64,000 nucleotides of DNA from Flavobacterium johnsoniae. GTDB lineage: Bacteria; Bacteroidota; Bacteroidia; Flavobacteriales; Flavobacteriaceae. Shown here one piece after another: positions 39,645 to 56,131 of the stretch (the first letter of the stretch is position 1; every line of letters starts with the position of its first letter). The stretch is taken from the NCBI RefSeq assembly GCF_001879205.1, contig NZ_MLFK01000006.1, forward strand, positions 124,001-188,000, read 5' to 3'. The translations under genes were made by a program, and so were the position numbers. A model generated the notes under the pieces. The model saw only the letters and a list, made by a program, of their open reading frames with translations. It made no database searches and was not told where the DNA came from.

Positions 39645-39671
39645 CTAATCTAATGCCAATTTCAATTTCGA

Positions 39672-39679
39672 CAAATATA
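39672..39679 (-). promoter_or_regulatory. Candidate -7 box of the alpha/beta hydrolase gene
   Basis: TATATTTG on the minus strand, a full match to TAnnTTTG, 27 bases before the start at 39644. Confidence 0.5.
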
Positions 39680-39920
39680 GGGTTAAATAAATAAAAATGA
39701 ATTTTTGCCGCCATTTTTTAACTAGATTATTTTAGTAGAACATCTAAGTGTTTAAAAATCAGCTTTTCTGTTGGGTTTTGTTATATTGTTTAAATGTTAA
39801 AATCATTGCATTATAATTAATTTTTTAAGAGAAATGATGTTTAATTTTTGTAATTGTTAAAAGAATCTTTCTCTGCGCTGATTAATATCTAAACTGTTGA
39901 TTGCTTAATGTTTATGAGAA

Positions 39921-39977
39921 GTGGTAGGAAAGTGGTTAAACTTATTAACAAAGTGGTATATAGTGGTAATATGTGGT
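39921..39977 (+). promoter_or_regulatory. Five GTGGT boxes, candidate MraZ operator
   Basis: GTGGT starts at 39921, 39932, 39953, 39963 and 39973, so the gaps are 11, 21, 10 and 10 bases, close to one or two helical turns. MraZ in other bacteria binds GTGGG-type repeats of similar period upstream of its own gene. The boxes lie directly upstream of the mraZ -7 box and would overlap its -33 region. Confidence 0.75.
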
Positions 39978-39988
39978 AAAATTTTTTA

Positions 39989-39996
39989 TATTTTTG
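39989..39996 (+). promoter_or_regulatory. Promoter -7 box of mraZ and the cluster
   Basis: TATTTTTG, full match to TAnnTTTG, 26 bases before the TTG start of mraZ, and 11 bases after the last GTGGT box. Confidence 0.6.
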
Positions 39997-40022
39997 CTGT
40001 ATAACATGTTAATAGATTTTTC

Positions 40023-40496
40023 TTGAACACAATTGTAGGAACATACGAGTGTAAAGTCGATGCAAAAGGGAGGCTGATGATGCCTGCACCCTTAAAAAAG
40101 CAGTTGGCGGCCTCTCTTCAGGATGGTTTTGTCTTGAAGCGCTCGGTATTTCAGCAGTGTTTAGAATTGTATCCAATGGAGGAGTGGAATTTGATGATGG
40201 CGAAAATTAACAAGTTGAATCGTTTTGTAAAAAAGAACAATGATTTCATCCGCAGATTTACTGCCGGCGTAAAAGTGGTAGATATTGATGCATTAGGAAG
40301 ATTATTGGTGCCAAAAGATTTGGTTACGTTTTCGGGTATTTCTAAAGATGTGGTTTTTTCATCTGCGGTTAATATTGTGGAAATTTGGGATAAAGATTTA
40401 TATGAAAAATCAATAAGCGGCGAAGATATGGATTTTGCAGATTTAGCCGAGGAAGTAATGGGAAATATTAATGACGACGACAATGGAATATCATAA
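40023..40496 (+). CDS. mraZ: Transcriptional regulator MraZ
   Basis: A 157-aa DNA-binding protein of the SpoVT-AbrB fold that controls the division and cell-wall genes after it. Two MraZ repeats are visible: GTYECKVDAKGRLMMPAPLK and VKVVDIDALGRLLVPKDL. The start is a TTG, as the sequence NTIVGTYECK allows no earlier ATG. Five candidate binding boxes precede it. It overlaps rsmH by 26 bases. Direct autoregulation is inferred from the boxes. Confidence 0.95.
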   Translation: MNTIVGTYECKVDAKGRLMMPAPLKKQLAASLQDGFVLKRSVFQQCLELYPMEEWNLMMAKINKLNRFVKKNNDFIRRFTAGVKVVDIDALGRLLVPKDLVTFSGISKDVVFSSAVNIVEIWDKDLYEKSISGEDMDFADLAEEVMGNINDDDNGIS

Positions 40497-41379
40497 TCCG
40501 GTTTTACTTCATCCAACAGTTGATGGTTTAAATATTAAACCAGACGGCATTTATGTAGATGTAACGTTTGGCGGCGGAGGCCACTCAAAAGAGATTTTGA
40601 GACGATTAGGGCCAAACGGAAAATTATTTGCCTTTGATCAGGATGAAGACGCGCTGGCAAATGCGCTGCCTGATGAAAGATTTACCTTGATTAATGAAAA
40701 CTTTAGGTTTATAAAAAGATTTCTTCGTTTTCATGGTGTTAAAGGAGTAGATGGGATTTTAGCAGATTTGGGAGTTTCATCACACCAGTTTGATGTTCCG
40801 GAAAGAGGTTTTTCAACCAGATTTGATGCCGAGCTTGATATGCGGATGAGTCAAAAAAATGATTTAAATGCTTATCGGGTGGTTAACGAATATGAAGAAC
40901 AGGATTTACGTCGTGTTTTTTTTGATTATGGGGAGTTGAAAAATGCACCGGTTTTAGCAAGAACTATCGTAGAGGCCAGAGAACATTGGCCAATTAAAAC
41001 TACAGATGAGTTAAAAGAAGTTTTAAAGAAGTATTTGCCAGAGAAAGTTCGAAATAAAATATTAGCCCAGATTTATCAGGCGATTCGAATTGAGGTAAAT
41101 CAGGAAATGGATGTTCTGAAAGAATTTATTGAGCAGTCTCTTGAAATTTTGAATCCGGGCGGAAGATTTTCTGTAATCTCTTATCATTCTTTAGAAGACA
41201 GACTGGTAAAAAGATTTATTAAAAACGGAATGTTTGAAGGAGAACCGGAACGCGATTTTTTTGGAAACTTTTCGGTACCGTTTAAAAGTATTGGCAAGTT
41301 GATTGTTCCGGACGATGAGGAGATCAAAATAAACAATAGAGCAAGAAGTGCAAAATTGAGAATTGCTGAAAAGATATAA
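40471..41379 (+). CDS. rsmH: 16S rRNA (cytosine-1402-N4)-methyltransferase
   Basis: Methylates N4 of C1402 in 16S rRNA. The 302-aa protein shows VDVTFGGGGHSKEIL (motif I), ILADLGVSSHQFD (motif IV) and QAIRIEVNQEMD, with the C-terminal RSAKLRIAE. Either the ATG at 40471 (MTTTMEYHNPV) or that at 40483 may be used; both lie inside mraZ. Formerly called MraW; it sits at its normal place after mraZ. Confidence 0.95.
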   Translation: MTTTMEYHNPVLLHPTVDGLNIKPDGIYVDVTFGGGGHSKEILRRLGPNGKLFAFDQDEDALANALPDERFTLINENFRFIKRFLRFHGVKGVDGILADLGVSSHQFDVPERGFSTRFDAELDMRMSQKNDLNAYRVVNEYEEQDLRRVFFDYGELKNAPVLARTIVEAREHWPIKTTDELKEVLKKYLPEKVRNKILAQIYQAIRIEVNQEMDVLKEFIEQSLEILNPGGRFSVISYHSLEDRLVKRFIKNGMFEGEPERDFFGNFSVPFKSIGKLIVPDDEEIKINNRARSAKLRIAEKI

Positions 41380-41395
41380 TATATATAGGTAGAAA

Positions 41396-41743
41396 ATGAA
41401 GAGTGGAGTATTTGGCATATTAAAAGCAAGATTTCTAATTAACGATGATGCAGTAAAGAACTGGCGGTTCATTGTTTTTATAATTCTGCTGGCGATTTTG
41501 ATGATTGCAAATACACAGCGATATGAGCAGAAGGTATTTGAAATTGCAAAACTAAATAATGAAGTAAAAGAACTAAGATCAGAATTTGTAGATAGGCGTT
41601 CAGAATTAATGAAGCTGAAAATGGAGTCAACAATCTCGGATAAAATGCTCGAAAAGCAGATTTTTCCATCCACTGTTCCTCCAGTTAAGATAGAAGTTGA
41701 AAAAGAAGAAGAAAAAAGTTTCTTTAAAAGAATATGGCAGTAG
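41396..41743 (+). CDS. FtsL-like division protein
   Basis: A 115-aa single-pass inner-membrane protein: a basic N-terminus, a membrane helix (NWRFIVFIILLAILMIANT), then a coiled coil (AKLNNEVKELRSEFVDRRSE). Position between rsmH and ftsI is that of ftsL, a partner of FtsQ and FtsB at the septum. Databases may call it an S-adenosyl-methyltransferase from its neighbour; no methyltransferase motif is present. It overlaps ftsI by 10 bases. Confidence 0.85.
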   Translation: MKSGVFGILKARFLINDDAVKNWRFIVFIILLAILMIANTQRYEQKVFEIAKLNNEVKELRSEFVDRRSELMKLKMESTISDKMLEKQIFPSTVPPVKIEVEKEEEKSFFKRIWQ

Positions 41744-43740
41744 AAGATAAACATATATCCTACAGAATTTACCTCGTAGCAGTTTTCATCTTTTTGATGG
41801 CAATTGCTATTGTCGTTAAATTAACCAATATTCAATGGGTTGAAGGAGATTATTACAGAAAACTGGCCAAACAGCGTACAGTTAGAAATTTTGTAATTCC
41901 GGCAAATAAAGGAAATATCTATTCTGCAGATGGGAGTTTATTGGCAACATCAATTCCTAATTATGAAATTCGTTTTGATGCTAAAGCGCCAAAAACAGAG
42001 ACGTTTGAAAAACATGTCAAAGCATTATCAGATTCTTTAGCGACTGTTTTGGATAGACCCGGAGGTTATTATGAAAAAGAATTACGAAAAGCAAGAGCCA
42101 ATAAAAACCGCTATTATTTAATTGCCCGCAATTTAAGCTATACAGAATATGTTAAGATCAAAGGCTTTCCATTATTCAATTTAGGAGCTTTTAAAGGAGG
42201 TATTATTGTAGAGCAGGAAACAGTTAGAAAACATCCGATAGGAAAAATTGCTGAAAGAACAATTGGTTACGATCGTATTGATCCGGCAACCGGAGTAGAA
42301 GTTGGTAAAGGAATCGAGTGGGCTTTTAAAAGCTATTTGAACGGAAAAGATGGTAAAATTCTAAAGCAAAAAATTGCAAAAGGACAATGGAAACCTATTC
42401 GTGATGTTAACGAAGTAGATCCTATTGATGGTTATGATGTAATTTCTACGATAGATGTTTTTATTCAGGATATTGCGCACCACGCTTTGTTGAAACAATT
42501 GGAAGATTATGAAGCAGATCACGGTTGTGTGGTGGTTATGGAAACAGAAACAGGGCATGTAAAAGCAATTTCGAATTTAGGAAGAGCAGAAGATGGGTCG
42601 TATTACGAAACAACAAATTATGCAATTGCAGAATCTCACGAACCTGGATCGACTTTTAAATTAGTTGATTTAATGGCAATTTTAGAAGATAAAGTTGCAG
42701 ATACAAGTACTGTTTATGACAGTCACGGCGGAGAAATTAGATATTATGGAAGAGCAGTTCGTGATTCGCATAAAGGAGGGTACGGCAAAGTTACATTGGC
42801 ACGTGGATTTGAGCTTTCGTCAAATACTGTAATGGTACAAGCGGTTTATGAAAATTATAAAAATAACCCCTCCAAGTTTGTAAATCATATTAATGCATTA
42901 GGATTAAATAAAACATTAGGGCTGCATTTTAAAGGAGAAGGTAGACCATATATTCCACAGCCTGGAGACAAGCACTGGTCGGGAACTACACTTCCGTGGA
43001 TGGCTTTTGGGTATAATGTTTCGGTTACGCCAATGCAGACCTTAACCTTATATAATGCCGTTGCAAATAATGGGGTTATGGTAAAACCTCAATTTGTATC
43101 TGAAATTAAGGAATGGAATAAGACTATTAAAAAGTTTGATACAGAAGTAATAAATCCAAGAGTTTGTTCGCCGGAAACGCTTAAAAAGGTAAAAGCAGTT
43201 TTAGCAAACGTGGTAAAAAAAGGAACAGGTTCTAAGTTGTATTCGAAAGATTTTTCGATGTCAGGAAAAACGGGAACAGCCATGGTAAATTATGGTAACG
43301 CTGGAAGAGAAGGAATGTATTATGCATCTTCTTTCGCTGGTTTTTTTCCGGCAGATCATCCAAAGTATTCTTGTATTGTAGTGGTTCATAAACCCAATAC
43401 GGCTAGAAATAATTATTACGGAGCAGACGTTGCGGGGCCGGTTTTTAAAAGAATTGCCCAAAAAATATTTACTGACGCACCTTCAACAAATAAAATCAAA
43501 AAACTGGATTCTAAAATTCAAAAACAAGAAAGCAGTTATGATAAATATATCGTTGAAGCCAATAAGAAAATAAATCAAATTCCTGATTTAAAAGGAATGC
43601 CTGGAATGGATGCAATTGCTTTACTGGAAAATTTAGGTTTGAGAGTTAAGGTAAATGGAGTAGGGAAAGTAAAAAAACAGTCTTTACAAGCTGGACAAAA
43701 TATTAGTAAAAACACAACAATAGTATTAGAATTATCGTGA
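41734..43740 (+). CDS. ftsI: Septal penicillin-binding protein (FtsI/PBP3) with PASTA domain
   Basis: The D,D-transpeptidase that crosslinks septal peptidoglycan. The 668-aa protein has a membrane anchor near residues 11-32 (YLVAVFIFLMAIAIVV), a pedestal domain, and the active site: PGSTFK with nucleophile Ser306 and Lys309, SSN at 362-364, KTG at 512-514. A C-terminal PASTA domain (IPDLKGMPGMDAIALLENLG) is normal in Bacteroidota. It overlaps murE by 4 bases. Confidence 0.95.
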   Translation: MAVEDKHISYRIYLVAVFIFLMAIAIVVKLTNIQWVEGDYYRKLAKQRTVRNFVIPANKGNIYSADGSLLATSIPNYEIRFDAKAPKTETFEKHVKALSDSLATVLDRPGGYYEKELRKARANKNRYYLIARNLSYTEYVKIKGFPLFNLGAFKGGIIVEQETVRKHPIGKIAERTIGYDRIDPATGVEVGKGIEWAFKSYLNGKDGKILKQKIAKGQWKPIRDVNEVDPIDGYDVISTIDVFIQDIAHHALLKQLEDYEADHGCVVVMETETGHVKAISNLGRAEDGSYYETTNYAIAESHEPGSTFKLVDLMAILEDKVADTSTVYDSHGGEIRYYGRAVRDSHKGGYGKVTLARGFELSSNTVMVQAVYENYKNNPSKFVNHINALGLNKTLGLHFKGEGRPYIPQPGDKHWSGTTLPWMAFGYNVSVTPMQTLTLYNAVANNGVMVKPQFVSEIKEWNKTIKKFDTEVINPRVCSPETLKKVKAVLANVVKKGTGSKLYSKDFSMSGKTGTAMVNYGNAGREGMYYASSFAGFFPADHPKYSCIVVVHKPNTARNNYYGADVAGPVFKRIAQKIFTDAPSTNKIKKLDSKIQKQESSYDKYIVEANKKINQIPDLKGMPGMDAIALLENLGLRVKVNGVGKVKKQSLQAGQNISKNTTIVLELS

Positions 43741-45200
43741 AAATACTGAAAGACATATTATATAAAGTAGCTATTGAGTCTGTAACGGGTTCGACAGAAA
43801 TCGATATACATAAAATTGAATTTGATTCGAGAAAAATTGAAGCGAATGATGTTTTTGTAGCGATTCGCGGATCACTTTCTGATGGTCATGATTATATAGA
43901 AAAAGCGATTCAGCTGGGGGCTATTGCGATTATTTGCGATACTTTACCTGTAAATATCGAAAAAGGAATTACGTATATTAAAGTAAAAGATACCAACACG
44001 GCATTGGCTTTTATGGCAGCTAATTATTTTGGAAATCCTTCTGAAAAATTAAAATTAGTGGGTGTCACAGGTACAAACGGAAAAACAACTATTGCATCGT
44101 TATTGTTTCAGTTGTTTGAAAAAGCCGGTTTTAAAGTTGGTTTATTATCAACTGTAAAAATCATGGTTGATGAAACAGAATATCCTGCAACGCATACAAC
44201 GCCGGACTCTATTACAATTAATCATTATTTAAATGAAATGGTTGAAGCTGGAGTAACGCATTGTTTTATGGAAGTGAGTTCACACGGAATTCATCAAAAG
44301 CGTACTGAAGCTTTGCATTTCGTAGGCGGTATTTTTACGAATCTTTCGCACGATCATTTAGATTATCACCCAACTTTTGCAGAATACAGAGATGTAAAAA
44401 AATCATTTTTTGATTCGCTGCCCAAAACAGCTTTTGCTTTATCAAACATAGATGATAAAAACGGAACTGTGATGCTGCAAAATACTATGGCAAGAAAGTT
44501 TACATACGCGCTAAAATCGTATGCTGATTTTAAAGCAACAATTTTAGAAAGCCAATTGTCAGGTTTACTGCTAAAAGTTAATGATAATGAAGTTTGGGTA
44601 AAACTAATAGGAACTTTTAATGCCTACAATGTTCTGGCTATTTATGGAACGGCTGTAGAGCTGGGAATGGATAGTCTTGAGGCGTTGCGCTTATTGTCTG
44701 ATTTAGAAAGTGTTTCTGGGCGTTTTCAATACATTGTCACTGATTCTAAAGTGACAGCAATTGTAGATTATGCTCATACTCCGGATGCTCTTGAAAATGT
44801 TTTAAAGACGATCGACGACATCAGAACCAAAAACGAACAATTGATTACAGTTGTGGGCTGCGGAGGAAACCGAGATAAAACTAAAAGACCAATTATGGCC
44901 AAAATTGCGGCAGATCTTAGTGATAAAGCAATTTTAACCTCAGACAATCCAAGAAATGAAGATCCTGAAGTGATTTTAGATGAAATGGAACAAGGTGTTG
45001 AGGCTCATAATTATAAAAAAATATTAAGAATAACCGACAGAAAGCAGGCTATTAAAACTGCCTGTCAGCTGGCTCAGCCTAATGATATTATTCTAATTGC
45101 CGGAAAAGGGCATGAAACCTATCAGGAAATTAAAGGAGTGCGTCATCATTTTGATGATATGGAAACAGTTAAAGAAATTTTAGATCAACTAAACAAATAA
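43737..45200 (+). CDS. murE: UDP-N-acetylmuramoyl-tripeptide synthetase MurE
   Basis: Adds the third residue to UDP-MurNAc-dipeptide, 487 aa. VGVTGTNGKTTIASLLF is the ATP-binding loop, and SDNPRNEDP contains the DNPR motif linked to meso-diaminopimelate, so DAP-type peptidoglycan is expected. The central domain carries SSHGIHQKR. The start is a GTG overlapping the ftsI stop (GTGA). A 78-base gap with a decayed AATTCC-type repeat follows before mraY. Confidence 0.95.
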   Translation: MKILKDILYKVAIESVTGSTEIDIHKIEFDSRKIEANDVFVAIRGSLSDGHDYIEKAIQLGAIAIICDTLPVNIEKGITYIKVKDTNTALAFMAANYFGNPSEKLKLVGVTGTNGKTTIASLLFQLFEKAGFKVGLLSTVKIMVDETEYPATHTTPDSITINHYLNEMVEAGVTHCFMEVSSHGIHQKRTEALHFVGGIFTNLSHDHLDYHPTFAEYRDVKKSFFDSLPKTAFALSNIDDKNGTVMLQNTMARKFTYALKSYADFKATILESQLSGLLLKVNDNEVWVKLIGTFNAYNVLAIYGTAVELGMDSLEALRLLSDLESVSGRFQYIVTDSKVTAIVDYAHTPDALENVLKTIDDIRTKNEQLITVVGCGGNRDKTKRPIMAKIAADLSDKAILTSDNPRNEDPEVILDEMEQGVEAHNYKKILRITDRKQAIKTACQLAQPNDIILIAGKGHETYQEIKGVRHHFDDMETVKEILDQLNK

Positions 45201-45278
45201 TATCCAGATATACAATTCCAAATACCACAGAATAAACGGGGATTTGAAGTTTAAGAAAGGAATTTAAAATAAAGAGAT

Positions 45279-46511
45279 ATGCTATACTATTTATTTGAAT
45301 ATTTTGACAAAACACTGGATGTGCCTGGAACAGGAGTTTTTCAGTACATCACATTTAGATCAGCGTTAGCATTTATGCTTTCGCTGCTGTTGTCAACCAT
45401 TTACGGAAAAAGAATTATTAATTTTTTACGCCGTCAGCAAGTTGGAGAAACAGTGCGTGAGCTTGGTCTTGCAGGTCAAAATGAAAAAGCAGGTACGCCT
45501 ACTATGGGTGGTTTGATCATTATTTTTGCAACATTGGTTCCGGTTTTGTTATTCGCAAGACTGCATAATATTTATATCGTATTGCTTATCGTAACGACGT
45601 TATGGATGGGAACTATTGGCTTTGTAGATGATTATATCAAAATATTCAAAAAAGATAAACAAGGTTTAAAAGGGATTTTTAAAGTAATTGGTCAGGTGGG
45701 TCTTGGAATAATTGTGGGAGCGGTTCTTTATTTTAACCCTGCTGTAACAGTTAGAACAGATACAGGTCGTACAGATGTTTTTAAAACTGTCGCTAATACA
45801 GCAGTTGTACTTCCGGCGCCTGTAGAAGAAAAATCTACGGCAACAACAATTCCGTTCGTAAAAAACAACGAATTTGATTATGCTGAAGTTTTATCGTTTA
45901 TGGGGGATGGATACGAAAAATGGGCTTGGTTAGTATTTATACCAGTAGTAATTTTTATTATCACGGCTGTTTCAAACGGAGCTAATTTAACAGATGGAAT
46001 TGATGGACTCGCTGCCGGAACCTCCGCAGTGTCAGTGCTCGCACTCGGAATATTTACGTTTGTTTCTGGAAATATTATTTTTTCGAACTATTTAAATATA
46101 ATGTACATCCCCAATTCCGGAGAAATGACGGTTTTTATATCGGCTTTTGTGGGGGCATTAATTGGGTTTCTTTGGTATAACTCATTTCCGGCATCTGTTT
46201 TTATGGGAGATACAGGAAGTTTAACCATCGGAGGAATTATTGCCGTTTTAGCAATTGCAGTTCGTAAAGAAATATTAATTGTGTTGTTCTGCGGTATTTT
46301 CCTTGCAGAAAGCGCTTCAGTAATTATTCAGGTAAGTTATTTTAAGTATACTAAAAAACGTTTTGGAGAAGGGCGAAGAATATTTCTGATGTCACCTCTG
46401 CATCATCATTATCAGAAAAAAGGATATCATGAAAGTAAAATTGTGACTCGTTTCTGGATTGTTGCTGTCATGCTGGCCATATTGTCAATTGTTACCTTAA
46501 AATTAAGATAG
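45279..46511 (+). CDS. mraY: Phospho-MurNAc-pentapeptide transferase MraY
   Basis: Makes lipid I by joining the UDP-MurNAc-pentapeptide to undecaprenyl phosphate in the inner membrane. The 410-aa protein has [15 protein letters not shown] (residues 115-121), [18 protein letters not shown] and [10 protein letters not shown]. Residues about 157-212 form an insertion between membrane segments, making it longer than the usual 360 aa; this looks lineage-specific. murD begins directly at the next base after its stop. Confidence 0.95.
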
Positions 46512-47843
46512 ATGAGGCTAGTAGTGTTAGGAGGAGGAGAAAGCGGTGTAGGTACAGCTATTCTCGGAAAGAAACAAGGATATGAAGTTTTTGTATCTGA
46601 TTTTGGAAAGATAAAAGAGAGTTACAAGGAAGTTCTTATCATTAATAAAATTGCCTGGGAGGAAGAACAGCACACAGAAGATTTAATTCTAAATGCTGAT
46701 GTAGTGATGAAAAGCCCCGGAATTCCGGAGAAGTCCCCCATAGTAAAAAAGCTGGTTGCGGCGGGGGTGAAAGTAATTTCGGAAATTGAATTTGCAAAGC
46801 CTTTTACGGAAGCAATGACAATTGGAATTACGGGAAGTAATGGTAAAACGACCACCACAATGCTAACCTATCATTTGCTTAAATCAGCGGGATTAAATGT
46901 AGGTTTGGGAGGTAACATAGGTAAAAGTTTTGCCTGGCAGGTAGCCGAAAATAAATTTGACGCATACGTTCTTGAATTAAGCAGTTTTCAGTTAGACGGA
47001 ATTATAGATTACAGACCAGATATTGCTATTATAACCAATATTAGTCCAGATCATCTGGATCGATATGAATATAAATATCAGAATTATATCAATTCAAAGT
47101 TTCGAATAACGATGAATCAAACCGAAAGTGATTATCTCATTTATGATGCAGACGATGAGGCAAGCGCAGAATGGTTAAAAGAGAACAAAACAAAAGCAAA
47201 ATTAATTCCTTTTTCATTGACTAAATCATTCAGTGAAGGGGCTTCTATAAATAACAACAAAATGGAAATAAAGATCAACCAAGAAGAGTTTACAATGGAA
47301 ACAGAATACATTGCGTTAGAAGGAAAACATAATATGAAAAACGCAATGGCAGCAAGCTCTGTAGCAAAATTGATGCAAATTAGAAATGCAACAATACGCG
47401 AAAGTTTATCCAATTTTCAAGGTGTTGAACACCGTTTAGAGAAAGTATTGAAAATCCAAAATGTACAATACATCAACGATTCTAAAGCAACAAATGTAAA
47501 TGCTACTTTCTTTGCTCTTGACAGCATGAACGTGCCAACGGTTTGGATTGTTGGAGGGGTTGATAAAGGAAATGATTACAATGAATTAATGTCATTGGTT
47601 CGTGAAAAAGTAAAAGCAATTATATGCCTTGGGGTTGATAATCACAAAATTATTAATGCTTTTGGAGACGTGGTTGATATTATGGTTGAAGTTAATAATA
47701 TGAATGATGCTGTAAAAACAGCACAAAGATTAACAGAAAAAGGTGATGCCGTTTTATTGTCCCCAGCCTGCGCAAGTTTCGATTTATTCGAAAACTACGA
47801 AGATCGTGGAAAGCAGTTTAAACAAGCGGTTCATAACTTATAA
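46512..47843 (+). CDS. murD: UDP-N-acetylmuramoylalanine-D-glutamate ligase
   Basis: Adds D-Glu to UDP-MurNAc-L-Ala. The 443-aa protein has the Rossmann start VVLGGGESGVG, the ATP loop GITGSNGKTTTTM, and the Mur-ligase middle block NISPDHLDRYEY. YINDSKATNVNAT and GVDKGNDYNEL are C-terminal MurD marks. It starts where mraY ends, with no gap, and is followed by a hairpin before ftsW. Confidence 0.95.
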   Translation: MRLVVLGGGESGVGTAILGKKQGYEVFVSDFGKIKESYKEVLIINKIAWEEEQHTEDLILNADVVMKSPGIPEKSPIVKKLVAAGVKVISEIEFAKPFTEAMTIGITGSNGKTTTTMLTYHLLKSAGLNVGLGGNIGKSFAWQVAENKFDAYVLELSSFQLDGIIDYRPDIAIITNISPDHLDRYEYKYQNYINSKFRITMNQTESDYLIYDADDEASAEWLKENKTKAKLIPFSLTKSFSEGASINNNKMEIKINQEEFTMETEYIALEGKHNMKNAMAASSVAKLMQIRNATIRESLSNFQGVEHRLEKVLKIQNVQYINDSKATNVNATFFALDSMNVPTVWIVGGVDKGNDYNELMSLVREKVKAIICLGVDNHKIINAFGDVVDIMVEVNNMNDAVKTAQRLTEKGDAVLLSPACASFDLFENYEDRGKQFKQAVHNL

Positions 47844-47859
47844 AATAAAAGTTTCAAGT

Positions 47860-47895
47860 TTCAGGTTTCACGTTACGAGGAACCTGAAACCTGAA
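47860..47895. repeat. GTTTCAGG-type inverted repeat inside the cluster
   Basis: TTCAGGTTTCA (47860-47870) and TGAAACCTGAA (47885-47895) pair perfectly over 11 bases around a 14-base loop, with further GTTTCAAG and GAAACCTGAAAC words nearby. It lies between murD and ftsW in an otherwise tightly packed operon. Confidence 0.6.
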
Positions 47896-47921
47896 ATAAA
47901 AGAAACCTGAAACTAAAAACA

Positions 47922-49241
47922 ATGAAGGAATTAGTAAACAAACTAAAAGGAGATAGGGTAATATGGTCATTCGTGGCTTTATTGGCGTTGTTTTCGTTTA
48001 TGCCTGTTTTTAGTGCGAGTAGTAATCTGGCATATATAGGTCACGGAACCGGAAATACATTGGGTTATTTGGTAAAACATTTGGCGCATGTTTGTATTGG
48101 TTTCTTGATTATTTACTGGGTTCACAAAGTGCCGTATCATTATTTTAGAGCGATTTCTAAAATTGCGCTTCCGGTAGTTTGGCTTTTGTTATTGTATACT
48201 TTATTAAAGGGAACTGTAATTGCAGGAGCAAATGCAAGTCGTTGGATTCAGGTGCCGTTTATCGGAATTACGTTTCAAACTTCGACTTTGGCGGCAAGCG
48301 TATTGTTTATTTATGTAGCACGGTATTTGTCAAAAACCAAAGAAGAAAATGAACCGTTTCAAACCTCATTAATTCAGCTTTGGGTTCCGGTATTTATTAC
48401 TTTGGCATTAATATTACCAGCCAACTTTTCGACCACTGCGTTGATTTTTTCTATGGTAATGATGCTTACGTTTATCGGTAAATATCCATTAAAATATATT
48501 GGTTTTATTATAGGTTCAGGAATTGCCATGCTGGCTTTTTTCCTTTTGGTAGCCAAAGCATTTCCGGAGTCAAGATTTTTCAGCAGGGTATCAACTTGGG
48601 AAAGTCGTATCATGAACTTTACCACTGATAAGCCGGATGAAGATGATTATCAAATAGAAAAAGCAAAAATTGCTATTGCATCCGGAAGATTGGGCGGATT
48701 AGGTCCGGGGAAAAGTGTTCAGAAAAACTTTTTACCGCAGTCGTCTTCGGATTTTATTTATGCCATTGTAGTAGAAGAATATGGTTTAGTAGGAGGAGTT
48801 TCGATATTAGTGCTCTATTTGTTGCTGCTGTTTCGATTTGTGATTGCGTCGCACAAAGCCAATACATTATTTGGTAAGTTAGTCGTCGTAGGCCTCGGAT
48901 TCCCCATGATATTTCAGGCGATGATTAATATGGCAGTTGCAGTCGAATTACTGCCGGTGACAGGACAGACGCTTCCATTGATAAGCTCTGGAGGTAGTTC
49001 TATCTGGATGACTTGTTTTTCTCTTGGGATCATTATTAGCGTAACCAAGAAAGATGAAGAAATCGCCGAAGAACAGGAAGAAAAAGAAAGAAGAAGAGAA
49101 GCGCTTCAACGTTTAATAGATAAAGAATTGGCCGAAGATGATCTGCCAGTTGATGAAAGAGAAGAAATTTACGAAGACGAAGCCATGTATTCTATCGAGG
49201 ATAATTCAAGAAACCCAATGAATGCGGTTTTAAATAAATAA
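47922..49241 (+). CDS. ftsW: Lipid II polymerase / cell-division protein FtsW
   Basis: The SEDS-family glycosyltransferase that polymerises lipid II at the septum, paired with FtsI. The 439-aa protein has about ten membrane segments, the core with GANASRWIQVPF, FIYAIVVEEYGLVGG and LPLISSGGSS (the motif that distinguishes it from RodA only by place). The last 60 residues are charged and cytoplasmic. Position between murD and murG supports ftsW over rodA. Confidence 0.93.
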   Translation: MKELVNKLKGDRVIWSFVALLALFSFMPVFSASSNLAYIGHGTGNTLGYLVKHLAHVCIGFLIIYWVHKVPYHYFRAISKIALPVVWLLLLYTLLKGTVIAGANASRWIQVPFIGITFQTSTLAASVLFIYVARYLSKTKEENEPFQTSLIQLWVPVFITLALILPANFSTTALIFSMVMMLTFIGKYPLKYIGFIIGSGIAMLAFFLLVAKAFPESRFFSRVSTWESRIMNFTTDKPDEDDYQIEKAKIAIASGRLGGLGPGKSVQKNFLPQSSSDFIYAIVVEEYGLVGGVSILVLYLLLLFRFVIASHKANTLFGKLVVVGLGFPMIFQAMINMAVAVELLPVTGQTLPLISSGGSSIWMTCFSLGIIISVTKKDEEIAEEQEEKERRREALQRLIDKELAEDDLPVDEREEIYEDEAMYSIEDNSRNPMNAVLNK

Positions 49242-49286
49242 AAGAATAAAAACAATAGTTTTTAAAGCGTTAAAACTTTTTAAAAG

Positions 49287-50372
49287 ATGTCAAAATATAA
49301 ATTCATATTAAGCGGTGGCGGTACAGGAGGGCATATCTATCCTGCAATTGCGATTGCAAATGAATTAAAATTACAATTTCCTGATGCTGAATTTCTTTTT
49401 GTTGGAGCCAAGGACAAAATGGAAATGCAAAAAGTGCCTCAGGCTGGTTATGAAATAAAAGGGTTGTGGATTGCAGGTTTGCAAAGAAAACTCACGCTTC
49501 AAAATATGATGTTTCCTCTAAAATTAGCAACAAGTTTGTTAGAATCAAGAAGAATCATCAGGCAGTTTAAGCCAAATGTAGTAATAGGAACCGGAGGTTT
49601 TGCCAGCGGACCTTTATTGCAGGCGGCAGGCGGGGCGGGAATCCCGACAGTGATTCAGGAACAGAATTCTTTTCCGGGAATTACCAATAAATTGTTGAGC
49701 AAAAAAGCAAATGCAATTTGTGTGGCTTATGAAAATTTAGAAAGGTTTTTTCCAAAAGAGAAAATAGTTCTAACTGGAAATCCGGTTCGTCAGGATTTAA
49801 TTGATATTGATAGTAAACGCAATGAAGCAATTGCTTTTTATGGTTTAGATCCGAATAAAAAAACATTACTGGTTTTAGGAGGAAGTTTAGGTGCACGAAG
49901 AATCAATCAGCTAATCGAAAAAGAATTGCCAAATTTTCTTTCACAGGACGTTCAGGTAATCTGGCAGTGCGGAAAACTATATTTTGAAGAATATAAAAAA
50001 CACAATCAACAAAACGTTAGAGTAGTTGATTTCATCGAAAGAATGGATTTTGTATACGCTGCTGCGGATGTGATTATTTCGAGAGCAGGAGCATCATCAG
50101 TTTCAGAATTATGTATTGTGGGTAAACCAGTAATATTTATTCCTTCGCCCAATGTTGCTGAGGATCACCAAACTAAAAATGCACAAGCAATTGTAGATGC
50201 AAAAGGTGCAATTTTGTTGAAAGAATCTGAGTTGGAAAGTCAGTTTAGCATTGTTTTTGAAGCGCTGCTGAAAGATGACGGAAAACAAAAACAATTAAGT
50301 GCAAATATTAAAAAACTGGCCCGTCCGGATGCAGTAAAAGTGATTGTAGAGGAGATTAAAAAGTTGTTATAA
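49287..50372 (+). CDS. murG: UDP-GlcNAc transferase MurG
   Basis: Adds GlcNAc to lipid I to make lipid II, at the inner face of the membrane. The 361-aa GT28 enzyme has [42 protein letters not shown] and the second glycine loop [11 protein letters not shown], then [11 protein letters not shown] for UDP-GlcNAc. The length is normal. A 209-base gap with short GCTTAAAGC repeats separates it from murC. Confidence 0.95.
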
Positions 50373-50539
50373 TATAACTTTTTCTAAAAATTGTGAAACA
50401 TTTAGAGAAAAGCAGCATGTTATTTTAGGCAATTTGGTCAAATAAGAACAGAAAAAACACAACGGCTTAATTACTAGTTTTTTATGAGGTGAAAAGCAGT
50501 AAATAGGTTTGAAGATAAAATTAAAGGATAAAGTTTTAC

Positions 50540-50570
50540 GGCTTAAAGCCTAAAGCGTAATGCTTAAAGC
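50540..50570. repeat. GCTTAAAGC repeats upstream of murC
   Basis: GGCTTAAAGCC (50540-50550) is a perfect 11-base palindrome and GCTTAAAGC recurs at 50562-50570, just before the murC start at 50582. The 209-base gap (50373-50581) otherwise shows only A/T-rich DNA, no TAnnTTTG box I can defend. Confidence 0.5.
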
Positions 50571-50581
50571 AAAAATTAAAA

Positions 50582-51931
50582 ATGAATTTAAATCAAATAC
50601 AAAACGTTTATTTTATTGGTATTGGAGGCATCGGAATGAGTGCCCTGGCCCGCTATTTTAAGTATATCGGGAAACAGGTTTCGGGTTACGACAAAACGCC
50701 GTCAATGCTTACAAGCGAATTAATCGAAAGTGGTATTGATATTCATTTTGAAGATAATATTAATTTGATTCCGAGTGACTATTTTGTAGAGAACACACTG
50801 GTTATTTTTACGCCTGCTGTTCCAAAATCACATTCAGAATGGAATTATTTTATCGAAAGAAATTACGAGATTAAAAAGCGTGCAGAGGTTTTAGGAATTA
50901 TCACGAAAGATACTTTTAGTTTTGCAGTTGCCGGAACACACGGTAAAACAACAACTTCAAGTATTTTAGGACATATTTTATACGAAAGCGGAGCAGATGT
51001 TACGGCATTTGTGGGCGGTATTGTAGAAAATTATAATTCTAATTTAATAGGAACCGGAAAAACCGTTACAGTTGTAGAAGCAGATGAATTTGATCGTTCA
51101 TTTTTGCACCTGCATCCAAATATTGCCTGTATAACCTCAATGGACGCAGATCATTTGGATATTTACGGAACAAGCGATGCAATTGAGGCTTCGTTTGTTG
51201 AGTTTGCATCAAAAGTAGAAGATAAAAATAAATTGTTTATAACCAGAGAATTGCCTCTTGAAGGTGTTCAATGTGCTATAAATGAGGATGCTGTTTATAA
51301 AGCATATAATGTTCGAATCGAGGATGGAAGTTATGTTTTTGATGTGCAGACGCCTTCAGAAATTATAAAAGACCTGCATTTCGGACTGCCAGGAAAACAC
51401 AATTTAATGAATGGGTTAATGGCTATTGCGATGGCAAAAACTTATGGCACCCCGACCGAGGCCATTGCAAGAGCTATTGCCTCGTTTAACGGCATCAGAA
51501 GACGTTTTTCTTATCAGATTAAATCTGAAAATTTAGTTTATATAGATGATTATGCACATCATCCAACAGAAATAAACGCTGTTCATCAAGCAGTTAGGGA
51601 ATTGTATCCGGGGCGTAAAGTACTGGCGGTTTTTCAGCCGCATTTATTTAGCAGAACAAGGGATTTTGCTGATGGATTTGCAGCAAGTTTATCACAGTTT
51701 GATGAAGTGTTTTTAATGGATATTTATCCGGCACGCGAATTACCGATGGAAGGAATTACATCGCAATGGCTGTTAGGTAAAATGACAAATTCGAATAAAA
51801 AAATTGTTGCAAAAGAAGATTTATTAGCGGAAATCAAAGCCAGTGATGCGCCAATAATTGTAACAATAGGGGCTGGTGATATTGGTGAAATGGTACCGTC
51901 AATTAAAAAAATGCTAAATGAAAATATTTAA
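50582..51931 (+). CDS. murC: UDP-N-acetylmuramate-L-alanine ligase
   Basis: First amino-acid-adding step of the stem peptide. The 449-aa protein has FIGIGGIGMSALA at the start, VAGTHGKTTTSSILG (ATP loop), the MurC block GGIVENYNSN, and NGIRRRF plus DDYAHHPTEI in the C-terminal domain. It overlaps ftsQ by 14 bases. The gap before it is the largest inside the cluster, which leaves room for an internal promoter. Confidence 0.96.
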   Translation: MNLNQIQNVYFIGIGGIGMSALARYFKYIGKQVSGYDKTPSMLTSELIESGIDIHFEDNINLIPSDYFVENTLVIFTPAVPKSHSEWNYFIERNYEIKKRAEVLGIITKDTFSFAVAGTHGKTTTSSILGHILYESGADVTAFVGGIVENYNSNLIGTGKTVTVVEADEFDRSFLHLHPNIACITSMDADHLDIYGTSDAIEASFVEFASKVEDKNKLFITRELPLEGVQCAINEDAVYKAYNVRIEDGSYVFDVQTPSEIIKDLHFGLPGKHNLMNGLMAIAMAKTYGTPTEAIARAIASFNGIRRRFSYQIKSENLVYIDDYAHHPTEINAVHQAVRELYPGRKVLAVFQPHLFSRTRDFADGFAASLSQFDEVFLMDIYPARELPMEGITSQWLLGKMTNSNKKIVAKEDLLAEIKASDAPIIVTIGAGDIGEMVPSIKKMLNENI

Positions 51932-52640
51932 TTGGACAAATATTCGATTAGTACTCATTTTAGGGCTTGTTCTTTTTCTATATTCTTTCGCGCAGCATCG
52001 AAATGGAGATAGAAAATTGAAAAAATCTATGGTTGTTTTTGTAGGAGAAAATACGCTTTTCGTTAAGCCGGAAACGGTTAATAAATTGTTGATAGAAAAT
52101 AAAAGAGACGCTTCCAGTATTAGAAAAGATGAACTAGATTTGAATAAGATAGAGAAAACCCTGGATACGCAAGACATGATTGAGAAGTCAGATGTTTTTG
52201 TAAGTATCGATGGTGTTCTAAAAGCGGTAGTAAAACAGAAGACACCAATAGCGAGAGTTTATGATGGTGATCACTCTTTTTATATTGACTATGAGGGTAA
52301 TAAAATGCCCTTGTCAGATAATTTTACGGCGCGAGTTCCTCTTATTTCCGGGGCAATAAATGAAAAAAATAACGAAGATTTAGCTGCTTTATTTCGCACA
52401 ATTTACGACGATGCGTTTTTGAAAAAAAACATCATTGCGATACAAATTATGCCGAATGGCAGCCTAAAAATGTTTAACCGAAACTATGATTACATCATAG
52501 ATTTTGGTCGTACGATGAATGTTGATAAAAAATTTAATAACTATAAAGCCTTTTTTCAAAAAGCGGTTTTAGATAGTTCGTTATATAAATACAGTAAGAT
52601 TGACCTTAGGTTTACGGAACAAGTAGTTTGCACAAAATAA
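51918..52640 (+). CDS. ftsQ: Cell-division protein FtsQ (DivIB)
   Basis: A 240-aa bitopic septal protein: a single membrane segment near residues 8-22 (RLVLILGLVLFLYSFA) and a periplasmic body with the POTRA-like start (KSMVVFVGENTLFVKPETVN) and the DivIB-like domain (TPIARVYDGDHSFYIDYEGN). It links FtsL and FtsA to the septum. Sequence conservation is low; the position between murC and ftsA, its length and topology carry the call. Confidence 0.88.
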   Translation: MKIFNWTNIRLVLILGLVLFLYSFAQHRNGDRKLKKSMVVFVGENTLFVKPETVNKLLIENKRDASSIRKDELDLNKIEKTLDTQDMIEKSDVFVSIDGVLKAVVKQKTPIARVYDGDHSFYIDYEGNKMPLSDNFTARVPLISGAINEKNNEDLAALFRTIYDDAFLKKNIIAIQIMPNGSLKMFNRNYDYIIDFGRTMNVDKKFNNYKAFFQKAVLDSSLYKYSKIDLRFTEQVVCTK

Positions 52641-52646
52641 TAGAAA

Positions 52647-54056
52647 ATGGAAAAAGATAACATTGCAGTAGGTCTAGATATTGGAACGACAAAGATAGTT
52701 GCCATGATCGGCAAGAAAAATGAGTATGGAAAGTTGGAAATTTTGGGTATTGGTAAATCCAAAAGTCTGGGAGTTGCACGAGGTGTTGTAAACAACATTA
52801 CGCAAACTATTCAATCCATTCAGCAAGCAATACTTGAAGCCGAAAATAATTCAGGTTATAAAATAAAAGATGTTGTTGTGGGTATCGCCGGACAGCACAT
52901 CAGAAGTATTCAGCATACAGATTACATAAGCCGAAATAACCCGGAAGAAGTAATTGGAGAAAAAGACATTCAGCTTTTAATCGATCAGGTTAATAAACTG
53001 GCTATGTTACCGGGAGAAGAGATTATTCACGTTTTGCCGCAAGAGTTTAAAATTGACGGGCAGTCTGAAATAAAAGAACCTATCGGAATGTACGGCGGAA
53101 GATTAGAATCTAGTTTTCACGTAGTGGTAGGACAGGCATCATCCATCAGAAATGTTGGAAGATGTATTCAAAGTTCAGGAATCGAATTATCAGGATTAAC
53201 ATTAGAACCATTAGCTTCGGCAGATGCAGTTTTAAGTCAGGAAGAAAAAGAAGCTGGTGTTGCGCTTATCGATATTGGAGGCGGAACAACAGATTTGGCT
53301 ATTTTTAAAGACGGAATTATTCGTCATACTGCTGTGATTCCTTTTGGAGGAAATGTAATTACAGATGATATTAAAGAAGGCTGTTCGATTATCGAAAAGC
53401 AAGCTGAACTTTTAAAAATAAAATTCGGATCGGCTTGGCCGGGAGAAAATAAAGACAATGAAATTGTTTCTATTCCAGGTTTAAGAGGCAGAGAACCAAA
53501 AGAAATTTCATTAAAAAATCTTTCTAAAATTATTCACGCCCGTGTGGTGGAAATTGTAGAACAGGTTTTTGCAGAAATTAAAGCTTACGGACACGAAGAT
53601 CCCCGCAAAAAATTAATTGCAGGAATTGTTCTTACGGGCGGCGGTGCACAGCTAAAACATATTAAACAATTAGTAGAATATATTACTGGTATGGATACCA
53701 GAATTGGATATCCAAACGAGCATTTAGCCGGAAACTCAAGCGAAGAAATCTCAAGTCCATTATTTGCAACAGCTGTAGGTTTGGTAATGAACAGTATCGA
53801 AAACAGCACGCAAAGCGCCGTTAGAATGGAAATCGTTAATGAGCAGCCAAAAGTAGTTTACAGAAATGTTCCTCCGCCGGTGCAGCGATACGAAGTTGAA
53901 GAAAACTACGTTGAACAAGTAGAAACCTTTGAAGAAACAAGAGAAGTTAAAACAGCAGCAAAGGTTGAAGCGGAATCTACGGAAACAAAAATTAGAAGAT
54001 CATTTTTTGATAGATATGTCGATAAAATCAAAGATTTTTTAGACAACGCAGAATAA
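52647..54056 (+). CDS. ftsA: Cell-division protein FtsA
   Basis: Actin-like protein that ties FtsZ filaments to the inner membrane. The 469-aa protein has phosphate-1 loop VGLDIGTTKIVAMIG, the SHS2 insertion (VVVGIAGQHIRSI), IDIGGGTTDLAIF and the adenosine-site IVLTGGGAQLKHI. The last residues RSFFDRYVDKIKDFLDNAE form the amphipathic membrane helix. About 60 residues before it are disordered. The start is 6 bases after ftsQ. Confidence 0.95.
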   Translation: MEKDNIAVGLDIGTTKIVAMIGKKNEYGKLEILGIGKSKSLGVARGVVNNITQTIQSIQQAILEAENNSGYKIKDVVVGIAGQHIRSIQHTDYISRNNPEEVIGEKDIQLLIDQVNKLAMLPGEEIIHVLPQEFKIDGQSEIKEPIGMYGGRLESSFHVVVGQASSIRNVGRCIQSSGIELSGLTLEPLASADAVLSQEEKEAGVALIDIGGGTTDLAIFKDGIIRHTAVIPFGGNVITDDIKEGCSIIEKQAELLKIKFGSAWPGENKDNEIVSIPGLRGREPKEISLKNLSKIIHARVVEIVEQVFAEIKAYGHEDPRKKLIAGIVLTGGGAQLKHIKQLVEYITGMDTRIGYPNEHLAGNSSEEISSPLFATAVGLVMNSIENSTQSAVRMEIVNEQPKVVYRNVPPPVQRYEVEENYVEQVETFEETREVKTAAKVEAESTETKIRRSFFDRYVDKIKDFLDNAE

Positions 54057-54142
54057 CAAGAATAAAAAGAGAAAAGGATTACTTTTTGCCCCAAGTCAAG
54101 AAGTAAAAAATGTACTAAATAAGAATTTCAAAAACCAAAAAG

Positions 54143-56131
54143 ATGATGAGCAACTCAGAATTTGGAAGTATTTCATTTGATTTACCAAAAAACCAATCAA
54201 ATGTAATCAAAGTAATAGGTGTAGGTGGAGGTGGTAGTAACGCTATTAACCACATGTTTAAACAAGGTATTAAAGGTGTTGATTTTATAGTTTGTAATAC
54301 CGATTCACAAGCACTGCAGAACAGTTCGGTGCCTAACAAAATTCAGTTAGGGATGAATTTAACAGAAGGTCTGGGAGCAGGAGCAAATCCTGATGTTGGA
54401 CAGCAGTCTGCTATTGAGAGTATCGCTGACATTGAGAAAATGTTAGATCGTGGTACCAAGATGGTATTTATTACAGCCGGTATGGGTGGTGGAACCGGTA
54501 CAGGTGCTGCTCCGGTAATCGCACAATTAGCAAAAGAAAGAGAAATTCTTACAGTTGGTATCGTGACAATTCCTTTTCAGTTTGAAGGGAAAGTGCGTCA
54601 GGAACAAGCTTTATTAGGAATCGAAAAATTACGTAAACAAGTTGACTCTTTAATTGTAATTAATAATAACAAATTAAGAGAGGTTTATGGAAATCTTGGT
54701 TTTAAAGCAGGATTCTCTAAAGCAGACGAAGTTTTGGCAACAGCCTCAAGAGGTATTGCCGAAGTAATTACGCACCACTATACTCAAAATATCGATTTAC
54801 GTGACGCTAAAACTGTTTTGGCAAACAGCGGAACAGCGATCATGGGATCTGCAGTATCAGAAGGTGAAAACAGAGCAAAAGATGCTATTGTATCAGCATT
54901 AGATTCTCCGTTATTAAATGACAATAAAATTACAGGAGCCAAAAACGTATTGTTGCTTATCGTTTCTGGATCTAACGAAATAACGCTTGATGAGATTGGA
55001 GAAATCAACGATCACATTCAGGCAGAAGCAGGTTATAATGCCAATATTATCATGGGAGTTGGTGAAGACGAAACTCTTGGTGAGGCTATTGCAGTAACTA
55101 TTATTGCTACCGGTTTTGATGTTGAACAGCAAAACGAAATCGTTAATACTGAGCCTAAAAAAATCATTCATACGTTAGAAGATGAGCAGAGAAGTGTTCA
55201 TAATCTAACCAATAGAACATTGACTTCTTTTGATTTAAATGCTGAAACACCTACTGCAAAATCAGAAGAGAAAATTGTTTTTGATTTAATGGAAGATACG
55301 GTTGCTCCCGTAGTACAAACTCCAGCTGCGCCAGTAAAAACACCAACAATCAATCAGGAAGAATTGGTAGTAATGTCTGAGTTTATTAAAAACCTGGATG
55401 TAACTTTTGAAATTGTTTCGCCAATTACTGATATTGATTTTAAAATTTCTACTCCGGCACCGGCAGCAGAAACTATTCAGGAAGTAAAACCTGTACAGCA
55501 GAGAACTTTTGAGAGAGAAGAACAAACTACTTTTTCATTTGATTTACCGCTTTTCAGATCTGAGCCTGAAGTTAAAAGAGAGCCGGTTGCAGAACAAGAT
55601 AATAAAATTGTTTTTGAACTTTCAAACGAAACTCGTAATATTAAAGTAAACGATCCAGTTTCATTTGTACCGGTAACGGAACTTTCTGATAACGGAATCA
55701 TCAAGTATTCGTTGGAAGAATATATGGAAGTTGAAAATGATTTAATGGCTTCTAAACCAGTTGAAAAAGTAGTTGAAGATGTTGTTCCTGAGGAATTGAA
55801 CATTACTTTAAAACCAAGAGTTGATTTTGCAAGCCAGCCTGATTTTTCTACAACTTCTGAAGTTTCTCCACTTGAATTAACAATTGAAGAGACTTTACGC
55901 TTAAGAGCAGAAGAAAGAAGAAAGAAACTAAAAGAATTTAATTATAAATTCCACAATAATGTTTCAAGAATTGATGAGTTGGAAAAAGAACCGGCTTATA
56001 AAAGATTAGGAATCGATTTGTCGAATTCTCAGTCAAACAATACAAATTCAAGAATTTCGGTTGGAACAGATAGTAACAACGATTTGCAATTGCGTTCAAA
56101 CAATTCATTTTTGCACGACAACGTAGATTAA
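54143..56131 (+). CDS. ftsZ: Cell-division protein FtsZ with long C-terminal linker
   Basis: Tubulin-like GTPase of the division ring. In 662 aa, VIGVGGGGSNAINHM is at residues 24-38 and the tubulin signature GMGGGTGTG at 113-121; the T7 loop region NLGFKAGFSKADEV follows. The folded domain ends near residue 325. A linker of about 290 acidic, Pro-, Thr- and Glu-rich residues precedes EPAYKRLGIDLS (616-627), the Bacteroidota counterpart of the C-terminal conserved peptide, and 35 more residues follow. A near-match promoter word (TACTTTTTG at 54080) lies in the 86-base gap before it. Confidence 0.96.
   Translation: MMSNSEFGSISFDLPKNQSNVIKVIGVGGGGSNAINHMFKQGIKGVDFIVCNTDSQALQNSSVPNKIQLGMNLTEGLGAGANPDVGQQSAIESIADIEKMLDRGTKMVFITAGMGGGTGTGAAPVIAQLAKEREILTVGIVTIPFQFEGKVRQEQALLGIEKLRKQVDSLIVINNNKLREVYGNLGFKAGFSKADEVLATASRGIAEVITHHYTQNIDLRDAKTVLANSGTAIMGSAVSEGENRAKDAIVSALDSPLLNDNKITGAKNVLLLIVSGSNEITLDEIGEINDHIQAEAGYNANIIMGVGEDETLGEAIAVTIIATGFDVEQQNEIVNTEPKKIIHTLEDEQRSVHNLTNRTLTSFDLNAETPTAKSEEKIVFDLMEDTVAPVVQTPAAPVKTPTINQEELVVMSEFIKNLDVTFEIVSPITDIDFKISTPAPAAETIQEVKPVQQRTFEREEQTTFSFDLPLFRSEPEVKREPVAEQDNKIVFELSNETRNIKVNDPVSFVPVTELSDNGIIKYSLEEYMEVENDLMASKPVEKVVEDVVPEELNITLKPRVDFASQPDFSTTSEVSPLELTIEETLRLRAEERRKKLKEFNYKFHNNVSRIDELEKEPAYKRLGIDLSNSQSNNTNSRISVGTDSNNDLQLRSNNSFLHDNVD

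Follow-up and report, generated by a model that had tools for sequence, protein, structure and literature searches.

A DnaA-box-like nonamer beside a predicted MraZ operator at the dcw cluster of Flavobacterium johnsoniae and its relatives

Introduction

The division and cell wall (dcw) gene cluster of Flavobacterium johnsoniae, which lives in soil and water, begins with mraZ, and the DNA upstream of this gene carries five GTGGT boxes, which raises the question of which regulator or regulators would read this promoter. The initial annotation proposed a single one, MraZ itself, acting through five boxes with one skipped helical turn. In E. coli, the MraZ operator consists of direct GTGG repeats at 10-bp steps upstream of mraZ (Eraso et al. 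2014, as given in excerpts of PMC8475190), and in Mollicutes the site is described as direct repeats of AAAGTG[T/G] (Fisunov et al. 2016, cited in the same excerpts). MraZ is a repressor in both E. coli and M. genitalium, according to those sections of PMC8475190. Here, we analyze a stretch of 64,000 nucleotides (G000:C10:124001-188000; the window) from a genome of 5.49 Mb in 13 contigs (G000), together with the corresponding loci of related bacteria.

Results and discussion

Layout of the promoter and the dcw cluster

All five GTGGT boxes lie on the + strand in the 378-bp intergenic stretch upstream of mraZ, at steps of 11, 21, 10, and 10 as originally described, and the -7 box and the TTG start codon of mraZ are also where they had been placed (Table 1). 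The Bacteroidota promoter consensus has TAnnTTTG at -7 and TTG at -33. In the sequence, there is no TTG 17 to 23 nt upstream of the -7 box, where box 4 and its linker are found instead, and boxes 4 and 5 occupy the expected position of the -33 element. A sigma-70-type scan, which is uninformative for a promoter of the Bacteroidota type, gave five sites versus 2.9 in shuffles and no terminator, and an Rfam search of positions 39640-40100 gave no match.

Table 1. Positions of features in and around the mraZ promoter of the window
Feature	Position	Strand	Remarks
Alpha/beta-hydrolase-like gene, divergent from mraZ	38880-39644	minus	
GTGGT box 1, outermost, lineage-specific extra	39921..39925	+	Present in 53/80 close relatives and 4/31 genus genomes
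GTGGT box 2, flanking the DnaA-like box on its upstream side	39932..39936	+	Present in 78/80 close relatives, 21/31 genus genomes, and 4/27 family arrays
TTATTAACA, DnaA-box-like nonamer in the supposed skipped turn, 2 nt 5' of box 3	39942..39950	+	
GTGGT box 3, first of the core triple of putative MraZ boxes	39953..39957	+	GTGG invariant in 81 aligned promoters
GTGGT box 4, core	39963..39967	+	GTGG invariant in 81 aligned promoters
GTGGT box 5, core	39973..39977	+	GTGG invariant in 81 aligned promoters
TATTTTTG, -7 box, Bacteroidota type TAnnTTTG	39989..39996	+	TAnnTTTG in 31/31 genus genomes and 27/27 family arrays
mraZ, 157 aa, TTG start	40023..40496	+	Pfam PF02381 twice, above cut-off
Rest of dcw cluster: rsmH, FtsL-like small protein, PBP/FtsI, murE, mraY, murD, ftsW, murG, murC, ftsQ, ftsA, ftsZ	40471..56131	+	
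ftsZ, 662 aa	54143-56131	+	Tubulin and FtsZ_C domains end at about residue 326
TTATCAACA within the end of the ftsQ-like gene	52520-52528	minus	

As had been proposed, mraZ heads a cluster of about 16 kb, which we identify as a 16.1-kb dcw cluster with ftsZ as its last gene. The mraZ product matches the NCBIfam MraZ models with a best E value of 4.9e-33, under their curated cut-offs; the protein is conserved and of known fold, its sequence matching, for example, PDB entries 1n0e and 9qlg. Among the other genes, rsmH exceeds its NCBIfam cut-off, the PBP was named by family matches and FtsZ by Pfam, and the remainder were named from translated starts and gene order. An MraZ match is absent in 11 of 158 genomes of the phylum, 8 of which belong to family f22. 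The FtsZ of the window is long, and about half of it is a C-terminal extension. The TTATCAACA inside the ftsQ-like gene (Table 1) is probably a chance occurrence; E. coli ftsQA also has DnaA boxes.

Conservation of the phased boxes

Three sets of genomes were compared. The close relatives are represented by the best 80 MraZ loci (77 from Flavobacterium and 3 from Flavobacteriaceae or Bacteroidetes); the genus set consists of the 31 genomes that were read, from 41 searched of which 40 gave an MraZ match; and the phylum set contains 147 genomes with an MraZ match, from which 69 upstreams outside the genus were used, namely, the 30 best-scoring loci and 39 hand-picked to spread over families. We take the family of the window (f1) to be Flavobacteriaceae and its class to be Bacteroidia.

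An alignment of mraZ upstreams across relatives, which had been suggested as a check, keeps the phased boxes at 10-bp steps. Among the 81 promoters aligned (the window and its 80 close relatives), the GTGG core reaches 2.0 bits per column in boxes 3 to 5, where it is invariant, 1.90 in box 2, and 1.17 in box 1. Three phased GTGG boxes are likewise found in 30 of the 31 genus genomes, and the second box is altered in the other (L019). The idea of five boxes with one skipped turn is not supported: the conserved core consists of boxes 3 to 5, and box 1 is missing from its place in a third of the close relatives and in most of the genus. Box 2 is intermediate, being present in nearly all close relatives and two-thirds of the genus genomes but in few of the family arrays described below (Table 1). 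Because boxes 1 and 2 vary among relatives, the conserved unit comprises the nonamer discussed below, three boxes, and the -7 box. From comparison and from its architecture, with three GTGG at exact 10-bp steps and two more upstream of mraZ, identification of the array as a putative MraZ-type operator is well supported.

The fifth base of the boxes is T in 235 of the 240 core boxes of the 80 close relatives. The phased boxes in 21 upstreams from other families of the class have T 22 times, G 15 times, and A twice, and those in 42 upstreams from other classes have G 69 times, T 12 times, C twice, and A once. GTGGT is the form of this lineage, as the initial annotation had anticipated, with G mostly taking the place of T in other classes. 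Several of the other-class mraZ upstreams (e.g., L033, L039, and L058) have a TTGACTT-like -35 element ahead of boxes of the GTGGGGA type, a promoter type unlike that of Flavobacterium.

Could such an array be a matter of chance or a by-product of an AT-rich promoter, with no regulatory role? Apart from the low complexity of the region, nothing was found in favor of this explanation, which we regard as scarcely credible. When the 378-bp intergenic stretch was shuffled 100,000 times under a first-order Markov model, at least five GTGGT occurred in 6 shuffles and three at exact 10-bp steps in none. Although the pair GTGG-N6-GTGG is as frequent genome-wide as its reversed control (22 versus 22), the mraZ promoter is the only site in the genome with two overlapping pairs, i.e., a triple. 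Since the shuffles never gave a 10-bp triple and the triple is unique in the genome, the phased array is not due to chance; conservation over 168 of 203 genera (see below) also argues against that explanation.

The window shares with E. coli K-12, whose operator has three core GTGGG boxes (GTGGGAAATTGTGGGGCAAAGTGGG), the presence of three core GTGG boxes at 10-bp steps. It differs from that operator in having T rather than G at base 5, a Bacteroidota -7 promoter, and a DnaA-like nonamer upstream of the triple. Boxes 2 and 3 of the window (AAAGTGGT) also closely match the Mollicutes site, although the latter belongs to another host group, and an adjacent DnaA-like site is not mentioned for it in the excerpts of PMC8475190.

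A conserved nonamer ahead of the core boxes

Boxes 2 and 3 are 21 bp apart, a gap previously described as one skipped turn. It is filled by AAACTTATTAACAAA and holds a separate conserved element, TTATTAACA, which resembles a DnaA box. The columns of this nonamer average 1.94 bits in the 81-promoter alignment, and it is present in all 80 close relatives, as TTATTAACA in 69 and as TTATCAACA in 11. All 31 genus genomes have TTAT[T/C]AACA (T in 20, C in 11) exactly 2 nt ahead of the array.

Loci from the wider family were fetched by the triple-GTGG pattern alone, without asking for the nonamer. Of the 30 obtained, 27 were recognized as lying upstream of mraZ, and L133, L143, and L155 were dropped because mraZ was unrecognized downstream (L155 has TTATCAACA before its array, which is not counted). 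TT[A/G]TNAACA precedes the first GTGG in every one of these 27 arrays, in the forms TTATCAACA (13 arrays), TTATTAACA (12), TTATAAACA (1), and TTGTTAACA (1), with a gap of 2 nt in 25 and 3 nt in 2, and TAnnTTTG stands at one of two distances. This triple-array-only search matched 200 of 299 family genomes, a tally that is rough both ways, in that some matches lie away from mraZ and the window's own genome is missed, the first letter of the pattern (not G) meeting a G there.

The combined pattern TTATNNACA-N1..4-GTGG-N6-GTGG matches 247 of the 299 family genomes, covering the 168 of 203 genera given above, versus 1 match for the reversed control, and is absent from the other 52 genomes. Among the matches listed, the nonamer varies at position 5, where C and T occur along with a few G and A. 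Every row but one has A at position 6, the one being an additional hit at another site in G474; the gap measures 2 nt, or 3 nt in a minority of rows. One genome with no match to the pattern, G069 (L086), has three boxes and a DnaA with the motif DHATV, and the nonamer is absent.

These data bear on an alternative, namely, a plain MraZ operator in which AAACTTATYAACAAA is a part of the MraZ recognition site or an A/T-rich UP-like element and no second regulator is involved. Such an operator would fit the near-fixed spacing at which AAACTTATYAACAAA abuts the array and the helical phase kept by box 2 across it. However, spacings of either 2 or 3 nt are tolerated, families f3 and f4 have their box near -100 on the opposite strand, and same-type nonamers are also found at HU and dnaB, where they stand without GTGG, and in origin regions, all of which makes this alternative unlikely in our view. 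A degenerate MraZ box was also considered for the gap element and set aside, given that nonamers of the same type recur elsewhere without GTGG.

Resemblance to the DnaA box

Position 5 of the DnaA box is N, and, among the matches listed, the variable base of the nonamer is likewise position 5, corresponding to the N of TTATNCACA. The TTATTAACA of the window fails this strict DnaA consensus, with A and not C at position 6, and for this reason we term it DnaA-box-like; the form given as the DnaA-box consensus in excerpts of PMC8203912 is TTATCCACA. Since most of the family departs from the strict consensus at position 6, the nonamer might instead be bound by another, undescribed cell-cycle regulator of the class that controls dcw, HU, and dnaB, a possibility to which we assign a low probability. 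Speaking against it, G093 (L087), from genus g3 of the family, has a perfect TTATCCACA in the position that the nonamer occupies in others, and TTATCCACA is also found in the dnaB pair of G143 described below.

The 250 bp ahead of mraZ in other families of the class point in the same direction as G093: in 21 such upstreams, TTATCCACA occurs 9 times versus 0.07 expected, and TTWTN[CA]ACA is present in 17 of 21 versus 3.9 expected. The corresponding figures for the 42 upstreams from other classes are 8 versus 5.1 expected for TTWTN[CA]ACA and 5 versus 1.9 expected for the stricter TTWTNCACA, a slight excess, the latter count being reached by 6 of 300 shuffles. The box near -100 in families f3 and f4 sits on the opposite strand, and families f5, f8, and f9 are mostly without a clear box upstream of mraZ. 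Genome-wide, TTATCCACA is not enriched in the window's genome (38 versus 35 for the reversed control).

Further C-type boxes were seen 160 to 211 bp upstream of mraZ in six f4 loci (L036, L046, L050, L051, L056, and L102), four of which also have a box near -100.

Nonamer pairs at HU, dnaB, and other promoters

Two copies of TTATNNACA within 30 bp occur 104 times in 12 genomes versus 99 times for the reversed control, and therefore such pairs are not enriched as a class. One precise form with an exact 20-bp period, TTATN[CA]ACA-N11-TTATN[CA]ACA, nevertheless recurs at two promoters, neither of which has GTGG boxes. Nine of the 12 genomes (five genera) have it after recQ-fmt, ahead of HU, and four of the 12 (three genera) have it ahead of dnaB, next to accA. 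The dnaB pair in G143 consists of TTATCCACA and TTATTAACA; none of the five genus genomes searched has the dnaB pair form. The identities of HU in G000, DnaB in G471, and AccA in G158 were checked by Pfam, and the others rest on gene order and translated starts. A dimeric regulator would be compatible with the paired form and its exact period at these two promoters, and in this respect the pairs are a point for the undescribed regulator considered above. A third "TTATGAACA" at HU in G000 overlaps the start codon of that gene and was left out of the count.

In G000 and G036, the space between dprA and a divergent HU-CCDC81/SPOR gene holds another arrangement, TTATTCACA-N4-TTATTAACA (L216, 7390-7411; L215, 7510-7531; Pfam-checked in G000).

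Likely replication origin at rnr-rpiB

GC skew and coding-strand bias were sampled in 20 stretches of about 20 kb per genome. Cumulative skew in G036 is lowest at 850-870 kb, with rpiB at 869.9-870.4 kb, and both skew and coding bias flip sign between 850-870 kb and 874-894 kb; a second, shallower low lies at 1.40 Mb. The skew in G010 changes sign between the 863-kb and 1035-kb stretches, the latter of which contains rnr-rpiB (1.040 Mb), and this locus also has the densest box cluster among the 20 stretches (4 in 500 bp), its intergenic region holding 4 boxes versus 0.4 expected. In G143, the skew has a broad minimum from which rpiB does not stand out, and all three sampled genomes have a noisy coding bias.

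Boxes upstream of rpiB are in excess in the set of 10 genomes as a whole: their 2.8-kb upstreams hold 35 TTATN[CA]ACA (29 A-type and 6 C-type) versus about 6.4 expected from summed per-region shuffle means, and at least two are found in 9 of the 10. Single copies of TTATCCACA are found there in G143, G158, G471, and G135. The mnmG upstreams of 10 genomes, used as a control, hold 3 versus about 3.7 expected. Altogether, rnr-rpiB is the likely replication origin of the family, a conclusion that rests on the sampled skew in two genomes. The clustering of same-type nonamers at a likely origin argues for DnaA over another regulator as the protein that would bind them. Exact searches for TTATCCACA as a means of origin finding would overlook most of the A-type nonamers found here.

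Other candidate origins were examined and rejected. The neighborhood of mnmG (gidA) has 0 or 1 box in each of 10 genomes, and for that reason served as the control. No box cluster was found beside dnaA in the window's genome, where the nearest such nonamer lies about 490 bp upstream of the dnaA start, inside another open reading frame. Contig C3 has a pair of TTATCCACA, which falls within a gene judged SusC-like from its sequence. In G022, no boxes were found upstream of rpiB, and seven TTATNNACA nonamers were seen upstream of ybeY-mnmG, about 75 kb from rpiB (L213, 7330-7576); the origin may have been relocated in this species.

The DnaA recognition motif and the box type

A motif in domain IV of DnaA takes part in box recognition. 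It reads DHTTV in the DnaA of B. subtilis (chain 8btg), and 30 genomes examined here have DHATV (8), DHTTV (8), or DHSTV (14). DHATV is found in all six tested family genomes outside g3 and also in f6 and f7; DHTTV is found in all seven f4 genomes and in one of f9; and DHSTV is found in both g3 genomes and in f2, f3, f5, and f8, with one other-class genome included. At mraZ, A-type boxes accompany DHATV in the core of the family (f1) and in f6, and the upstreams of f4 (DHTTV) have 14 C-type and 3 A-type boxes. C-type boxes occur with DHSTV in G093, the only g3 genome in which the box was read, and near -100 in three of four f3 genomes, the exception being L061, with the A-type TTTTCAACA. Two families break the correspondence, and this is a further point for an undescribed regulator: f7 has DHATV yet TTTTCCACA, and f2 has DHSTV yet TTATYAACA at mraZ (in G135, a cluster of five TTATCCACA is found elsewhere). 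Hence, going by sequence comparison, the apparent match between the DnaA recognition motif and position 6 of the nonamer is partial.

A model for the composite promoter

We consider it probable that this stretch is a composite DnaA-MraZ promoter. The three core boxes, which follow each other at one helical turn and reach as far as the -33 region, would be bound by MraZ along a single face of the DNA. Through them, MraZ would control its own gene and the dcw cluster, most likely by repression, with RNA polymerase blocked; the outer boxes would lengthen the array in some species. TTATTAACA, with its center about 47 bp upstream of that of the -7 box, would be a site for DnaA in the variant form TTATNAACA, which also predominates at the likely origin of the family. 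Where box 2 exists, the putative DnaA site is enclosed by MraZ boxes 21 bp (two turns) apart, and therefore the two proteins may be expected to compete or cooperate. DnaA bound at the nonamer could touch MraZ or compete with it and in this way tie dcw transcription to the state of replication initiation. Both the binding of the two proteins and an effect of DnaA on transcription are inferred. As to the direction of that effect, we would guess at activation or anti-repression, with slightly better than even confidence, over repression, which we consider a lesser though appreciable possibility.

More tentatively, and with a little less than even confidence, the model can be extended to Bacteroidia: DnaA would be a cell-cycle transcription regulator of the entire division and cell wall cluster by way of a single box fused to the MraZ array, HU, dnaB, and the HU-CCDC81/SPOR gene would belong to its regulon, and DnaA would have changed jointly with its boxes in Flavobacteriaceae (DHATV with TTATNAACA). 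If this is true, replication initiation would be directly coupled to dcw expression across a whole bacterial class.

DnaA boxes have been described at the cell-division promoters of Caulobacter ftsZ, B. subtilis ftsL, and E. coli ftsQA (excerpts of PMC8203912), which, like the window, place a DnaA-type site at a cell-division operon. The nonamer of the window differs from those boxes in being fused to an MraZ array, in its conservation in most of the family's sampled genera, and in having A at position 6 in most of the family. The excerpts of that review also state that the E. coli ftsQA boxes were found to be immaterial to ftsZ transcription and that there is no species with a proven major impact of DnaA transcriptional activity on the timing of cytokinesis. 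In B. subtilis, ftsL is in one operon with rsmH and pbpB, and RsmH and PbpB are unchanged upon replication arrest, which counts against the model (PMC11019786, in part). DnaA boxes at mraZ in Bacteroidota are unreported in the open-access titles and abstract openings searched, and the fusion of a box to the MraZ array and its family-wide conservation are likewise unreported in the open-access literature searched. The conserved DnaA-like site in a predicted MraZ operator suggests a direct and testable link between replication initiation and preparation for division, and a single mutation of the nonamer, conserved across most sampled genera (168 of 203), makes the question of coupling testable.

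A last observation concerns E. coli K-12, which has a minus-strand TTTTCCACA about 244 bp ahead of mraZ (L349, 191-199).
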